A stretch of DNA of 33,037 nucleotides from an uncultured bacterium (lineage in GTDB: Bacteria; Bacillota; Clostridia; Lachnospirales; Lachnospiraceae), in assembly GCA_947651225.1 (NCBI GenBank), contig CANSYK010000038.1, positions 1 to 33,037 on the forward strand, given 5' to 3'. The notes under the pieces are model-generated. The model worked only from the letters and a program-made list of their open reading frames with translations. It was not told where the DNA came from and did no database searches. Both the position numbers and the translations under genes were made by a program. Below are positions 5,734 through 25,133 of the stretch, in pieces. The first letter of the stretch is position 1, and each line of letters opens with the position of its first letter.

Positions 5734-6573
5734 TCAAACTTCTTTATCCCAGCTTCTTTGCAGCAAAAACACAAATACGACAAGCACGATACAAAGCAGG
5801 ACAGATCCTGCCGCCATTTTGTCAACAGAAAGTTCCAAAAACCAGTTATTAAATACATGCTGTAAAAGATAAATCTTTTCCTGCGGATAATTTCCCACCA
5901 CCAGATATGCCTCACGGAATACCTTAAACGAATTCAGAAAAGATAGAATAATAATGGTAAAAGCCACGGGACGGATATTGGGAAGCGTAATATAAAAAAA
6001 ACATTTCCATGCCCCTGCTCCATCTACCTTAGCCGCCTCATATATACTTTCTGAAATCCCATGAAGTCCTGCCATCCATAAAATCACATCATATCCAAGA
6101 TTTTTCCAGATATAACTAAAAACCAATACACCAAAAGCTGCCCCCGAATTCATCCAATCTTTTCCCTTCAAATGGAAAAAAGAAAGAATCCCATTTAACA
6201 TACCAGACTGGTCAAAGACAATATTCCAGAGAAGCACCACGCTTGCCGCCGGAATGGCAAGAGGAACCAGGTAAGCGCTCTTTAAAAAATTTTTTCCCTT
6301 TTCCTGCCCCTGTAACAAAACAGCAATCCCTAAAGAGAGCCCCAACAATAATGGCAGGCAGACAAGCACAAAGCGAAGGGTGTTGCCTGCCGCCAAACAA
6401 AATGCCTGATTCGAAAGTACCTGATGGTAATTTTTCATTCCGGCGAACCCACTTCCAACCGCCTGTACAAAAGAACGCCTTACCACATCCCCAAAGGGAA
6501 TCACATAAAAGACAAAAACTCCTAAAAGGCCTGGCAGAACAAATAAAAAACCTGCTTTCTTCCTCTTTACCAT
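5734..6573 (-). CDS. Carbohydrate-type ABC permease, MalF-like
   Basis: The product is 279 residues with about six transmembrane helices. The EAA loop reads ESIYEAAKVDGAGAWKCF. The N-terminal KRKKAGFLFVLPGLLGVFVF is typical of the UgpA/MalF subunit of CUT1 importers. The ATG at 6573 has GGAG 9 bases ahead; the TTG at 6600 has no better site. It starts 33 bases after the lipoprotein gene ends, in the same operon. It should form a heterodimer with the MalG-like protein. Confidence 0.85.
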   Translation of the reverse strand: MVKRKKAGFLFVLPGLLGVFVFYVIPFGDVVRRSFVQAVGSGFAGMKNYHQVLSNQAFCLAAGNTLRFVLVCLPLLLGLSLGIAVLLQGQEKGKNFLKSAYLVPLAIPAASVVLLWNIVFDQSGMLNGILSFFHLKGKDWMNSGAAFGVLVFSYIWKNLGYDVILWMAGLHGISESIYEAAKVDGAGAWKCFFYITLPNIRPVAFTIIILSFLNSFKVFREAYLVVGNYPQEKIYLLQHVFNNWFLELSVDKMAAGSVLLCIVLVVFVFLLQRSWDKEV

Positions 6574-9121: not shown

Positions 9122-9817
9122 ATGAAAATTTTATTAATTGAGGACGATAAAAATTTATGTGAACTGCTCCAATACCAGCTGCAAAAGGAAATGCACCAGG
9201 TAGATTACTGTCATGACGGCCGGGATGGCCTTGATTTATTTTTACAAAATGCACATGATCTGGTATTACTGGATCGGATGCTGCCCACCATGAACGGGCT
9301 TCTTGTCTTAAAAAAAGCACGGAATGCAGGGCTTACGACCCCTGTCATTTTAATTACTGCGTTAGGTGAACTTTATGACCGAATTGAAGGGCTGGACAGT
9401 GGAGCTGATGATTATATTGTAAAACCTTTTGAATATGAAGAACTTTCTGCCCGAATCCGTTCTCTGGGGAGGCGGAGCGGAAGTTTTGAAGACAATGGCC
9501 TTTTACAGGTTGGAGATATCACTTATGACAGCTCGCTTCGGATTCTGTATGGTCCAAAGTGCGAACTGCAGTTATCTGGCAGGGAAGGGCTTTTATTGGA
9601 AGTCTTTCTCAGAAATCCTTCCTGCACGATAAAGCGTATGGTTATTTTTTCAAAAGTCTGGGGTGTGGATGCCCCGGTGGAAGAAAGCAATTTAGATACC
9701 TATATCCATTTTTTAAGAAAACGGCTCCGCTATGCCGGAAGCCGCTTAAATTTAAAGACAATACGGGGTAACCTCCGTCTGCCTTTTCTTTGCAGAAGAC
9801 AGTATGAAAACAAATGA
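9122..9817 (+). CDS. OmpR-family response regulator with altered C-terminus
   Basis: The product is 231 residues. The receiver domain has the acidic pocket (IEDD, 6-9), phospho-acceptor D51 in LVLLDRMLP, T79 and K101 (KPF). The winged-helix output domain runs ~125-220 (SGREGLLLEVFLRNPS, NLDTYIHFLRKRLR). The protein should end with KTIRGVGYRL-type residues. Instead it reads KTIRG then NLRLPFLCRRQYENK. Shifted by one base, that tail DNA reads TSVCLFFAEDSMKTND, which looks like the end of the first membrane helix of the partner kinase. A deletion therefore seems to have joined the regulator's last strand to the kinase gene. The wing is incomplete, so DNA binding may be impaired. The start has a GGGG ribosome binding site. 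Confidence 0.85.
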   Translation: MKILLIEDDKNLCELLQYQLQKEMHQVDYCHDGRDGLDLFLQNAHDLVLLDRMLPTMNGLLVLKKARNAGLTTPVILITALGELYDRIEGLDSGADDYIVKPFEYEELSARIRSLGRRSGSFEDNGLLQVGDITYDSSLRILYGPKCELQLSGREGLLLEVFLRNPSCTIKRMVIFSKVWGVDAPVEESNLDTYIHFLRKRLRYAGSRLNLKTIRGNLRLPFLCRRQYENK

Positions 9818-10626
9818 CTATTCTGCCTTTTTACAACAGTTAAATTCTGCCCTGACTCATTTACAGGAGCAGGAAGCCATTTCCCATGAATGGTTGAATC
9901 AGATGCAAAAAGATGGTTCTCTTTTGCTCTATCTCTATGACAATAACAAGCCTCTTTATTACCAGGTCTATCACCAGTCAAAACAGGAACTTAAGGCAGC
10001 AAAAGAGGCAGTTTCTATTGCGAAAAAGAAGCATCAAATGGATATTTTTTCTGGAAATGTCCATCAAATTATCGCCCATACAGAATTTGATTTTACTTCC
10101 TCTGACAAAGAAAATTACTATGCTTCTGCTGGCAAATGCAGATTCTGACCACCTTCCCATGCAAATGGAACTATGCCAGCCAGATGAACTCCTGCTAAAT
10201 GCCTATGAAAAATATGAATCCCTTGCTGCCAAAAAACAGATTTCCCTGCTCATCTCACTTCCAGATACACTCTTTCCAGACTGCTATTGCGACAGGGAAC
10301 GCATCATGCAGGTATTTTCCATCCTGTTAGATAACGCCCTTTCCTATACCCCCTCTAATGGAACAATACAGCTTTCCCTTACACTCAATAAAGCCTTCCT
10401 GTGCTTTGTTGTTTCTGATACCGGATGCGGCATTGCAGAAGAAGACAAAAAGCGGATTTTTGACCGCTTCTACCGTTCCGACCAGGCGCACACTGATAAA
10501 ATGCACTTTGGCCCTGGTCTGTGTATTGCAAAAGAAATCGTTACAGCACATCAGGGCAAAATCTGCGTGGAAGATTCTGCTGAAGGCGGAAGCTGCTTTT
10601 TCGTGGAACTGCCAATCCATTGTTAA
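9804..10626 (+). pseudogene. Sensor histidine kinase, deleted remnant
   Basis: Two pieces remain in different frames. Piece one (9804-10148) has part of an extracytoplasmic sensor region (LTHLQEQEAISHEWLNQMQ, LLYLYDNNKPLYYQ). Piece two (from about 10115 in the frame ending at 10626) begins MLLLANADSDHLP and holds the ATPase domain: N box (QVFSILLDNALSYTP), G1 box (VSDTGCGIAEEDKKRIFDRF), and a G2-like GPGLCIAKEIV. Missing are the first membrane helix, the second membrane helix, HAMP and the whole HisKA domain with the phospho-accepting His. The frame switch at ~10100-10115 marks an internal deletion. It cannot autophosphorylate. It overlaps the regulator gene by 14 bases. Confidence 0.8.
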
Positions 10627-10656
10627 CCACTTGTTAGATGCAAAGAAAAAAAGATG

Positions 10657-10679
10657 GTTACTATTCACGGAATAGTAAC
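10657..10679 (+). repeat. Interspersed repeat core as a perfect palindrome (copy 3)
   Basis: GTTACTATTC (10657-10666), centre ACG, then GAATAGTAAC (10670-10679) form a perfect 10-bp inverted repeat. The first half plus centre equals the repeat core found elsewhere in the window. It lies 30 bases after the kinase remnant and 7 bases ahead of the MATE promoter -35. Confidence 0.75.
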
Positions 10680-10686
10680 AAAAAGA

Positions 10687-10715
10687 TTGCATTTGTATGT
10701 AAATTATTGTAGAAT
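10687..10715 (+). promoter_or_regulatory. Sigma-A-type promoter for the MATE gene
   Basis: TTGCAT (10687-10692), a 17-base spacer and TAGAAT (10710-10715). Transcription would begin near 10722, giving a leader of about 265 bases before the MATE start codon. Confidence 0.6.
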
Positions 10716-10730
10716 AATGGCATTATAAAG

Positions 10731-10860
10731 TGAAACGGCACTTTTTTGCCACCGGGTAAAAAAGACAGGATGCTGTCAGGCGATTAACAGAATCATTTCC
10801 TAAATCTTGTTTGCAAATAAATTTTCAAACAAGATTTAGCTGACAGTTCCAAAGCGTCAG
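10731..10860 (+). promoter_or_regulatory. Putative riboswitch aptamer and antiterminator (guanidine-IV/mepA-like?)
   Basis: The leader holds a small hairpin GGCA/TGCC (10737-10750), then ACCGGGTAAAAAA, then a hairpin GACAG/CTGTC (10764-10777). CTGTCAG (10773-10779) can instead pair with CTGACAG (10840-10846), extending a 14-bp stem, CTAAATCTTGTTTG (10800-10813) with its complement at 10826-10839. CTGAC (10840-10844) can also pair with GTCAG (10856-10860), which is the base of the terminator. These pairings exclude one another as in a riboswitch. The MATE/MepA context and the loop sequence CACTTTTTTGCCACCGGG recall the guanidine-IV (mepA) class, but I could not align it to the consensus. The leader is the only stretch above 300 bases without a gene. 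Confidence 0.5.
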
Positions 10861-10944
10861 ACTTTCTATCATTAGGTCATAGAGCGTGTTAGAGAATTTA
10901 TTTTCAAACACACTAGAGAAGATAGGAAGGTCTGGCGTTTTTTT
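10855..10944 (+). terminator. Leader terminator upstream of the MATE gene
   Basis: CGTCAGACTTTCTATC (10855-10870) pairs with GATAGGAAGGTCTGGCG (10921-10937), 16 pairs with one bulged G and two G-U. An inner GTGTT/AACAC stem (10886-10911) lies within. Seven T follow at 10938-10944. It ends 41 bases ahead of the MATE start and after its promoter, so it must attenuate that gene rather than end an upstream one only. Confidence 0.75.
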
Positions 10945-10985
10945 GTGAAAAGCACATTCAAAATTAAGAAAGACGGGGTATAAAA

Positions 10986-12314
10986 ATGAAATCAAATCTT
11001 AAAGAATTTATCCGATATGTCTCCTTGGACGTTTTAGGAATGATTGGTCTGTCCGGTTATATCCTTGCTGACACCTTTTTTATTGCAAACAAACTGGGTG
11101 CCAATGGTTTGACAGCATTAAATCTTGCCATTCCCATTTACAGCTTTATTCATGGAGCCGGACTGATGCTTGGAATGGGTGGTGCAACAAAATATTCTAT
11201 TTTAAGAGGACAAAAAGAGCATAAAAAATCCAACCAGATTTTTACCAATACACTGTATCTTGCAGCCATCTTTGCAGCTTTTTTTATTCTTACAGGAATC
11301 TTTCTTTCTGGAAAAATAGCTGCTTTCTCAGGCGCTGACGGTGCTGTTTTTTCAATGACCAAAACTTATTTGCAGATTATTTTGCTCTTTTCCCCTGCAT
11401 TTCTGCTCAATGAAATTTTCATCTGCTTTGTAAGAAATGACAGCAATCCAAAACTTTCCATGCTTGCGATGTTAACAGGCAGCGTGTCGAATATTTTATT
11501 AGACTACCTTTTCCTGTTTCCACTCCATATGGGGATATGGGGTGCGGTATTAGCAACAGGCTTTGCCCCTGTCATCAGCATCAGTATTTTATCAAAACAT
11601 TATTTGAAAAAGCAGAATCAGTTTCATTTGGTAAAAACAAAGTTTTCCCCTTCCCTGATTGGAAATATACTGTCCCTTGGACTTTCCTCCCTGATTACAG
11701 AAGCTGCCTCCGGTATCGTTATAATTGTTTTTAATATGCTGATCCTTGACCTAAATGGTAATACAGGCGTTGCCGCTTATGGAGTGATTGCCAATTTATC
11801 TCTTGTGATTCTCTCCATCTATAACGGAATTGCCCAGGGAACACAGCCGATGATAAGCCGCATCTATGGAAAAGGGGATCAAAACGGCTTACGGCAGATT
11901 TTGAAATATGCCGTTATAACAACGGAAGTCCTTTCCATCTGTATCTATCTTTTATTCTTTCAGATGGCACACCCGATAGTAAATATCTTTAACAGCGGGC
12001 AGAATATGCAACTGCAGCAGATTGCCGTTACCGGACTGAAATTATATTTTACTGCCATCCCCTTTGCAGGCTTTAATATTATTCTGACAATATATTTTGC
12101 CGCAACAGATCATGCACTGCCAGCGCAGGCAATTTCCCTGACAAGAGGATTGTTTCTAATCCTCCCTGCAGCTTTCTGCCTTTCCTGGCTTGCCGGAATG
12201 ACAGGAATATGGCTGTCCTTTCCCATTACAGAAGGCATTGTAACTGTAATCAGCAGTTGTTACTATTCACGGCTATCTAAACATCATGCGAAAAACCATC
12301 CGGCTATGCCATAA
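10986..12314 (+). CDS. MATE-family multidrug efflux transporter, MepA-like
   Basis: The product is 442 residues with about twelve hydrophobic segments in two homologous halves. The conserved MATE patterns are recognisable: GYILADTFFIANKLGANGLTA in the first half and NGIAQGTQPMISRIYGKG in the second. MATE proteins export cationic compounds across the membrane using Na+ or H+ gradients; MepA is the closest subtype I recognise. The ribosome binding site is GGGG 9-10 bases ahead of the ATG. Expression is probably controlled by the structured leader just upstream. The last 18 residues (CYYSRLSKHHAKNHPAMP) are encoded by a copy of the interspersed repeat, so the native C-terminus has been replaced. 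Confidence 0.9.
   Translation: MKSNLKEFIRYVSLDVLGMIGLSGYILADTFFIANKLGANGLTALNLAIPIYSFIHGAGLMLGMGGATKYSILRGQKEHKKSNQIFTNTLYLAAIFAAFFILTGIFLSGKIAAFSGADGAVFSMTKTYLQIILLFSPAFLLNEIFICFVRNDSNPKLSMLAMLTGSVSNILLDYLFLFPLHMGIWGAVLATGFAPVISISILSKHYLKKQNQFHLVKTKFSPSLIGNILSLGLSSLITEAASGIVIIVFNMLILDLNGNTGVAAYGVIANLSLVILSIYNGIAQGTQPMISRIYGKGDQNGLRQILKYAVITTEVLSICIYLLFFQMAHPIVNIFNSGQNMQLQQIAVTGLKLYFTAIPFAGFNIILTIYFAATDHALPAQAISLTRGLFLILPAAFCLSWLAGMTGIWLSFPITEGIVTVISSCYYSRLSKHHAKNHPAMP
12259..12314 (+). repeat. Interspersed repeat, copy 4, inside the MATE 3' end
   Basis: GTTACTATTCACGGCTAT at 12259, then CTAAACATCATGCGAAAAAC and CATCCGGCTATGCC. This is colinear with the copy at 18468-18531 with a few substitutions and stops before the GTCTGGCGCTG tail. 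The MATE stop codon lies at its end, within the repeat. Confidence 0.75.
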
Positions 12315-12473: not shown

Positions 12474-13817
12474 ATGGACTTTAAAACAATGTATGAAAAC
12501 AAGTTAACGACTGCGGACGAAGCAGTAAAATCAGTAAAATCCGGAGACTGGGTTGATTTTGGCTGGTGTGTCACCACGCCGGTTGCACTGGATGCTGCCA
12601 TGGCAAAAAGACTGCCGGAACTGACAGATATCAACTTCCGCGGCGGAATCTTAATGTGGCAGCCGGAAATTTTCCAGATTGAGGAGCCTGCAAAACATAT
12701 GACCTGGAATTCCTGGCATATGGGTGGTATTGAGAGAAAAGCAATCGCACAGGGATTTTCTTTCTATGCCCCAATCCGCTATTCAGAACTTCCACGTTAT
12801 AACCGTGATTCAAAAACCCCTTCTAATGTGGCTATGTTCCAGGTTGCACCAATGGACGAGCATGGTTTCTTTAATTTCGGGCCAAGCGCCTCCCATATGG
12901 CAGCCGTATGTGAACGTGCTGAAACAATTATCGTGGAGGTAAATGAAAACATGCCTCGCTGTCTGGGTGGTTTCGAAGAATCCATCCACATCAGCAAAGT
13001 AAATATGATTGTAGAAGGCGACAACCCTGCCATTGCTTCTATGGGCAAAAGTGCCCCAGCTACAGCAGTTGATGAAGCCGTAGCAAAATATATTGTCAAT
13101 GAAATTCCTAATGGGGCATGCCTCCAGCTTGGAATTGGCGGTATGCCAAACGCTGTCGGTTCCCTGATTGCACAGTCTGATTTAAAAGACTTAGGTGTAC
13201 ATACAGAAATGTATGTAGATGCCTTTGTTGACATTGCAAAAGCCGGAAAAATCACTGGAAAGAAAAAGAATATTGATAACGGGCGCCAGGCATATGCATT
13301 TGCAGCAGGAACCCAGAAATTATATGACTATTTGGACAACAACCCAGAGTGTATGAGTGCCCCTGTTAACTATACCAATGATATCCGTCAGATTTCTGCT
13401 TTAGATAACTTTATTTCTATTAATAATGCAGTCGATATTGATTTATTCGGCCAGGTCAACGCAGAGTCTGCCGGAACAAAACAAATCAGCGGAGCTGGCG
13501 GACAGCTCGACTTTGTACTTGGCGCTTACCTTTCAAACGGCGGCAAGTCATTTATCTGTATGTCCTCTACTTTTACCCAGAAGGACGGCACTGTAAAATC
13601 AAGAATCAATCCTACACTGAGCAACGGCTCTATTGTTACCGATACCCGTGCCAATGTACACTATTTTGTTACAGAATACGGTATTGTAAACTTAAAAGGA
13701 CTATCCTCCTGGCAGAAAGCCGAAGCAATCATATCCGTTGCACACCCTGATTTCAGGGATGAACTGATTGCCGAAGCAGAAAAAATGCATATCTGGAAAC
13801 AGAGTAATAAACGTTAA
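12474..13817 (+). CDS. but: Butyryl-CoA:acetate CoA-transferase
   Basis: The product is 447 residues, the usual length. It moves CoA from butyryl-CoA to acetate, the last step of butyrate formation in Lachnospiraceae, in the cytoplasm. Family I CoA-transferase marks: the expected catalytic Glu (E245 in [18 protein letters not shown]), a CoA-binding glycine stretch ([14 protein letters not shown], ~218-230) and [16 protein letters not shown]. The N-terminal [27 protein letters not shown] and [12 protein letters not shown] agree with the butyrate-specific branch as I remember it, rather than 4-hydroxybutyrate transferases. The start has GGAGG 7 bases ahead. It is monocistronic: hairpin leader before, terminators after. 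The related 4-hydroxybutyrate or propionyl-CoA enzymes are the main alternatives. Confidence 0.9.
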
Positions 13818-18467: not shown

Positions 18468-18531
18468 GTTGCTATTCACGGCTATTCTAAATATCATGCG
18501 AAAAACCATCCGGCTTTGCCGTCTGGCGCTG
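18468..18531 (+). repeat. Interspersed repeat, most complete copy (copy 5)
   Basis: Reads GTTGCTATTCACGGCTATTC at 18468, then TAAATATCATGCGAAAAACC, then ATCCGGCTTTGCCGTCTGGC and GCTG to 18531. It contains both the 5' core and the 3' half seen separately elsewhere. CGGC/GCCG can form a tiny hairpin in its 3' half. It lies between tRNA-Gly and pncB. Confidence 0.7.
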
Positions 18532-25106: not shown

Positions 25107-25133
25107 GTTACTATTCATGGCTATCCTAAACAC
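25107..25133 (+). repeat. Interspersed repeat, 5'-half copy (copy 6)
   Basis: GTTACTATTCATGGCTATCC then TAAACACC matches the first ~27 bases of the repeat at 12259 with few changes. It ends 8 bases before the (minus-strand) ligA stop codon. Confidence 0.65.

Follow-up and report, generated by a model that had tools for sequence, protein, structure and literature searches.

Guanidine-IV riboswitches consist of two hairpins connected by a loop–loop pseudoknot; the 3′ hairpin doubles as a transcription terminator and the element acts as an ON switch (PMC7736828, PMC11611296, PMC12186494). In the account given in two of these papers, the kissing loops strain the short linker between the hairpins so that the outer pairs of the 3′ hairpin cannot close; the detail of this linker-strain account is still open (PMC7736828, PMC11611296). 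The transporter families found with the class are listed there as including SugE, MATE and PnuC (PMC7736828, PMC12186494). Here we describe a related leader in a stretch of 33,037 nucleotides (nt; contig CANSYK010000038.1, assembly GCA_947651225.1, referred to as the window) from an uncultured bacterium of the Lachnospiraceae. The leader, positions 10741-10944, is a candidate transcriptional riboswitch of the guanidine-IV type (GGAM-1/mepA motif) upstream of a MATE transporter gene. We put the probability that it is a guanidine-IV-type ON riboswitch for this exporter, enlarged by two hairpins, at about 0.72. The description covers one genome, 96.7% complete, with one copy of the insert-bearing leader.

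A probable guanidine-IV-type leader upstream of a MATE gene

The class was modelled from relatives, with the window excluded. MATE orthologues came from 61 genomes, with loci taken for the best only, and from named genomes (23 loci); 31 other MATE loci share at least 46% identity (L002-L010, L031-L052). The pattern CCRCCGGG followed by AGGYC occurs upstream, within ~650 nt, in 25 of them; at L035, L037, L041, L045 and L049 the distance to the matched gene is ~450-650 nt. It was unmatched at the remaining six, namely L006 (with 35 nt of upstream sequence only), L009, L043, L048, L051 and L052, where diverged forms could escape it. Two pattern matches, L038 5214-5315 and L044 6827-6928, were false and were removed before counting. 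A variable-gap pattern scan of viral contigs added one further class member, L059.

An alignment (A3) of 17 of the 28 pattern rows, which omits the two false matches, the duplicates L037, L041 and L049 and the six shortest rows (L034, L035, L038, L040, L042, L044), folds into a 5′ hairpin, P1, and a terminator hairpin, P2, with compensatory changes at 20 of 26 pairs. Scanned over the whole window, the covariance model built on it (R1) has its best match, for P2, at 10832-10944 (47.2 bits, E 3.6e-9). The match for P1, at 10736-10800, scores 26.9 bits (E 1.6e-4), and the two lie on the same strand and in the order usual for the class; a third match, at 6233, has an E value of 0.32. R1 finds carriers in 75 of 295 genomes of the order and in 23 of 398 of the phylum sample, the genome studied here being counted in both. 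The minimum-energy fold of 10723-10945 reaches -74.9 kcal/mol (z -8.2), lower than any of 200 dinucleotide shuffles, and gives P1 ten pairs. The parts of the leader and the gene that it presumably controls are as follows, L1 and L2 being the loops of P1 and P2.

10741..10764, + strand: P1 hairpin, CTTTTTTGCC-ACCG-GGTAAAAAAG, with conserved loop L1 (R1 match of 26.9 bits, E 1.6e-4, over the whole window)
10751..10753, + strand: L1 half of the pseudoknot, ACC, partner of GGT at 10875-10877
10768..10850, + strand: extra hairpin domain in the P1-P2 linker, with pairings GGA/UCC, GCUGUCAG/CUGACAGU and CUAAAUCUUGUUUG/CAAACAAGAUUUAG; edges uncertain by a few nt
10854..10870, + strand: 5′ arm of P2, the terminator hairpin (R1 match of 47.2 bits, E 3.6e-9), partner of 10921-10938
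10871..10883, + strand: 5′ part of loop L2, ATTAGGTCATAGA, holding GGT 10875-10877 (pseudoknot) and G10882
10884..10919, + strand: 36-nt palindrome in L2, a copy of a genus repeat (about TAGAGCGTGTTTGARAATNNATTYTCAAACACGCTCTA), absent from four aligned relatives
10921..10944, + strand: 3′ arm of P2 and a U-tract of seven T at 10938-10944 (from fold, R1 match and sequence)
10986..12314, + strand: MATE family transporter gene, presumably controlled by the leader; 442 amino acids, Pfam MatE 113.4 bits, E 1.1e-32

At the level of sequence, the assignment is supported by the P1 loop RCCG, the GGY within the P2 loop, a covarying pseudoknot of three base pairs (bp) between L1 and L2, predicted as ACC/GGU in the window, the conserved loop bases and the seven U. 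A larger alignment (A5), which includes most of the 17 leaders behind R1, documents these features across the class. It was built from 96 loci, of which 95 gave rows (92 distinct) and one, L175, missed the threshold of 1e-6; 23 non-window loci that were short, weak or redundant (L130 and L134 among them) and six places, one of them in the genome studied here, were left out. In A5 94.3% of cells are paired, double changes occur at 27 of 29 pairs, and covariation stands at 0.745, where shuffles give 0.256 and slid versions 0.115-0.141. The pseudoknot, which lies outside the model, pairs in 99.3% of cells; its first pair is A-U in 46 of the distinct rows, G-C in 39, G-U in seven and broken in none, where cells count sequences and not events.

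Downstream of the 95 rows lie genes for MATE (52), SugE (12) and PnuC (11) proteins, with 20 left without assignment. Because these three are families reported for guanidine-IV (PMC7736828), they support the class. The labels derive from Pfam for three of the 12 SugE proteins (Multi_Drug_Res in all three tested) and for one of the 11 PnuC proteins (NMN_transporter), the remainder being assigned by BLAST with short seeds; L103, a SugE candidate at E 0.003, was rejected as a PnuC relative. Fifteen L1/L2 columns, seven of them G, are invariant in the 12 SugE-linked rows, and the window has no mismatch at any of the 15. All 15 are matched by 56 of the 83 other rows as well; the window therefore sits with the majority. 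As a separate observation, one class member (L116, 157-242) precedes a gene (263-1348) for a protein whose C-terminal domains are of ArgZ-like type (PF21570, 220.7 bits), and the protein of L124 starts in a similar way.

A sequence-only reading of this DNA had guessed at a guanidine-IV (mepA) riboswitch or a relative, acting as an ON switch before a MATE gene. That guess is supported by the window-free model and further backed by the pattern at 25 of 31 MATE loci and by SugE downstream of 12 of 95 members. The Rfam search that it had proposed gave no riboswitch family in the whole window at gathering level, and the 12 matches up to E 10 at 10600-11000 include no riboswitch; this silence is uninformative, since 17 loci of relatives are likewise unmatched at gathering level. 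We infer that the Rfam copy searched holds no guanidine-IV model. The Rfam models for guanidine-I to -III have no match at gathering level in the window, nor up to E 10 at 10600-11000. The label 'MepA-like MATE' holds in its second half: the Pfam MatE score is far above the cut-off of 24.9 bits, whereas 'MepA-like' is loose, with 101.3 bits against a cut-off of 850 for the NCBIfam MepA model. The top NCBIfam scores, PRK09575 and FepA, are also below cut-off.

Two extra hairpins in the linker and in L2

The window has in common with guanidine-IV, as described in PMC7736828, P1 and the terminator P2, the L1-L2 pseudoknot, the conserved loop bases, the U-tract and the MATE gene downstream. It differs in two dimensions. 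P1 and P2 are 89 nt apart by the P1 of the fold (90 by model columns), whereas the linker spans 0-11 nt in the A5 rows, most commonly five, with a single exception of 23 nt (L107); and L2 carries a 36-nt palindrome, whereas L2 measures 11-14 nt in the relatives, none of the 95 exceeding 14. Aligned with L003, L032, L007 and L008, the window is about 85 nt longer in the linker and 36 nt longer in L2. Because of the palindrome in L2, we file the leader as a guanidine-IV variant. Some precedent for a longer linker in the class seems, by eye, to be given by L107, L130 and L134 (the last two from one genome), in which small linker hairpins can apparently be made out. At the other extreme stand compact members of 75-79 nt (L034, L035, L038, L040, L042, L044); in these, as judged by eye, P1 and the terminator seem to share sequence, the 3′ arm of the former running into the 5′ arm of the latter, and formation of P1 would then preclude closure of the terminator foot, and vice versa.

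To judge by its sequence, the L2 insert is a member of a palindromic repeat family of the genus. The family (approximately TAGAGCGTGTTTGARAATNNATTYTCAAACACGCTCTA) occurs in four of 28 genus genomes, with 17 forward matches in G004 and five places in the genome studied here, the L2 copy included; a reversed control pattern finds no match in the 28 genomes. Three other copies in the same genome were inspected, and all are intergenic. We take the palindrome to be akin to REP-like short palindromic repeats, with which it has in common a short palindrome, several copies in a genome and the intergenic setting of the other copies inspected; it differs in that this copy is inside a riboswitch loop. 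The linker insert shares the core TGTTTGNAAATNNATTTTCAAACA with the L2 insert. Its origin is less certain, because its outer arms differ and only this core is shared: the version with the outer arms of the linker insert has no other match within one mismatch in the 28 genomes, and the next-nearest matches, at 2-3 mismatches, are members of the L2-palindrome family. A literature search of limited depth yielded no account of repeats inside riboswitches or of inserts in guanidine-IV.

Proposed mechanism

Published work on the class suggests how the leader would operate. For guanidine-IV RNAs, reported KD values are about 0.06-0.3 mM. When ligand is absent, P2 would zip up fully and transcription would stop. 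Guanidinium, or a close relative of it, would stabilize the kiss between L1 and L2 while P2 is forming; the kiss would hold the outer P2 pairs apart, and RNA polymerase would continue into the pump gene.

The inserts need not interfere with this sequence of events. In the fold the linker insert closes at 10768-10850, leaving ACA beside P1, and folding of 10737-10854 with the linker domain included gives z -7.1. With the insert closed on itself, the tether between P1 and P2 would be the three nt ACA, or six nt together with AAA at 10851-10853, which in the full fold is base-paired to the U-tract and would be free once the terminator foot opens. A tether of 3-6 nt is close to what is typical of the class (4-6 nt), and the kiss could therefore still act on P2. 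The pseudoknot bases of L2 precede the L2 insert, which enters on their 3′ side between loop columns 84 and 85, and so the binding bases could still meet. We consider it likely, on these sequence features, that the leader still functions as a switch.

Competing explanations

Several observations weigh against this assignment. R1 splits the window into two matches, the better of which scores 47.2 bits compared with up to 99.3 in class members. The inserts occur in one genome only and thus offer no covariation of their own, and inserts this large are found in none of the 95 relatives. Both inserts could have spoilt the switch: in the fold, the foot of the L2 insert pairs with U10877, a pseudoknot base, and with the conserved loop base G10882; the helices concerned are short, two and three pairs, and such pairing could lower ligand affinity. 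All this would fit a decayed guanidine-IV riboswitch, in which the inserts broke ligand control and left a terminator that acts constitutively for the most part, with leaky read-through. Such decay is the chief alternative to a functional switch, and we regard it as unlikely: P1, the pseudoknot bases, the 15 SugE-invariant columns, the full P2 and the seven U are all intact, a tether of 3-6 nt is left once the linker insert has folded, and linkers of more than the usual length, perhaps with small hairpins, are present in L107, L130 and L134 too. A hairpin in L2 has a further bearing, since PMC9788692 states that SugE-linked guanidine-IV RNAs never have one and transaminase-linked RNAs of the Gd4v variant always do. 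According to the same paper, MATE genes occur downstream of Gd4v as well as of guanidine-IV, and the leader could thus be a Gd4v-type RNA sensing another ligand. This we hold to be very improbable. The window hairpin is a repeat copy, the aligned orthologues have no apical hairpin, and no transaminase gene adjoins the leader. Position D1 is described there as G in SugE-linked guanidine-IV and never G in transaminase-linked Gd4v (PMC9788692). None of the seven invariant-G loop columns departs from G in the window, which would speak against Gd4v if D1 is among those columns. As a source of Gd4v sequences, loci of the PRK07324 transaminase (NF005593) were sought and were over cut-off in two of 146 genomes of an order sample and six of 398 of the phylum sample. 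On these eight loci R1, which is not a Gd4v model, finds nothing above 10.9 bits, and in the 360-420 nt upstream of them no motif was seen by eye.

The sequence-only reading had put forward a different switch, with three states, in which ligand holds GACAG/CTGTC and leaves CTGAC free to open the terminator foot. Its strings are placed exactly (GACAG 10764-10768, CTGTC 10773-10777, CTGTCAG 10773-10779, CTGACAG 10840-10846, GTCAG 10856-10860), the seven T are present at 10938-10944, all the pairings exist, and its long hairpin, which is strong, and its terminator both appear in the minimum-energy fold of 10723-10945. The exchange itself is not supported. CTGTC and CTGAC lie in the insert, in sequence specific to the window and absent from the aligned relatives, and the conserved L1 and L2 bases would play no role. 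The matches are at chance level: 10731-10853 has a single hairpin of 5 bp whose loop measures 3-8, and at least one appears in 52% of 1000 mononucleotide shuffles, while a 5-nt match to the 5′ foot of the terminator, as in CTGAC/GTCAG, arises in 27% of 5000 shuffles. Nor is such a match a class feature, since one occurs upstream of the terminator in 16 of 95 leaders and 13.4 are expected from shuffles. When forced, GACAG/CTGTC lies 6.8 and CTGAC/GTCAG 9.4 kcal/mol above the minimum, in constrained folds that represent equilibrium, transient states during transcription lying beyond them. The mechanism described for guanidine-IV is instead a loop–loop pseudoknot with linker strain (PMC7736828, PMC11611296), and P1 (10741-10764), the pseudoknot and the loop insert were missing from the earlier scheme. 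We give strand exchange a negligible chance, and a guanidine-IV-type ON switch remains our preferred explanation.

Gene context and a second repeat

A promoter scan of 10600-11000 reported none on the + strand; by eye, one candidate can be proposed.

10687..10715, + strand: possible promoter TTGCAT - 17 nt - TAGAAT, with a weak -35 element (three of six)

In the genome studied here there is no match to the SugE family and none to the guanidine-I riboswitch (RF00442; guanidine-II and -III were sought in the window only), absences that are no proof because the genome is 96.7% complete. Directly after the pump gene follows a gene for a butyryl-CoA:acetate CoA-transferase (12474-13817; TIGR03948, 908 bits, over cut-off). 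Upstream lies a response regulator gene (9122-9817), and the sensor kinase behind it seems split in two frames, 9804-10148, which has no Pfam match, and 9913-10626, which has a HATPase domain. The split across 9804-10626 reflects a frame break or else an error in the sequence.

A second repeat element is found ahead of the leader and within the 3′ end of the pump gene. The motif GTTACTATTCACGG occurs at 10657-10670 and 12259-12272, with near copies at 18469-18481 and 25108-25120, and it has 67 forward and 69 reverse matches in the genome, compared with none for a reversed control. At several of ten loci inspected it forms the start of a longer element, GTTACTATTCACGGCTATTCTAAACATCATGCGAAAAACCATCCGGCTATGCCG..., which in some cases has an inverted partner; the short hairpin form present at 10657 was also seen in L212. 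At 12259-12314 a copy of this element makes up the end of the MATE coding sequence (..CYYSRLSKHHAKNHPAMP), so that the repeat seems to supply the C-terminus of the transporter.

Possible implications for guanidine-IV riboswitches

A wider interpretation is that the leader may be a working guanidine-IV riboswitch in which palindromes, one or both of them a genomic repeat, were inserted at two sites that tolerate changes in length; we offer it tentatively, as a possibility that the sequence suggests. If it is true, a folded helical bypass can stand in for the short linker when the kiss breaks the terminator, and repeat insertion can give rise to a Gd4v-like apical hairpin, which suggests a route from guanidine-IV to the Gd4v architecture. 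A natural member whose 89-nt linker folds back to a tether of 3-6 nt is a ready test of the linker-strain model. The leader would further demonstrate that a ligand-sensing loop can accommodate repeat palindromes and, as a candidate guanidine-IV element, it may connect guanidine with a MATE pump whose genome has no SugE match.
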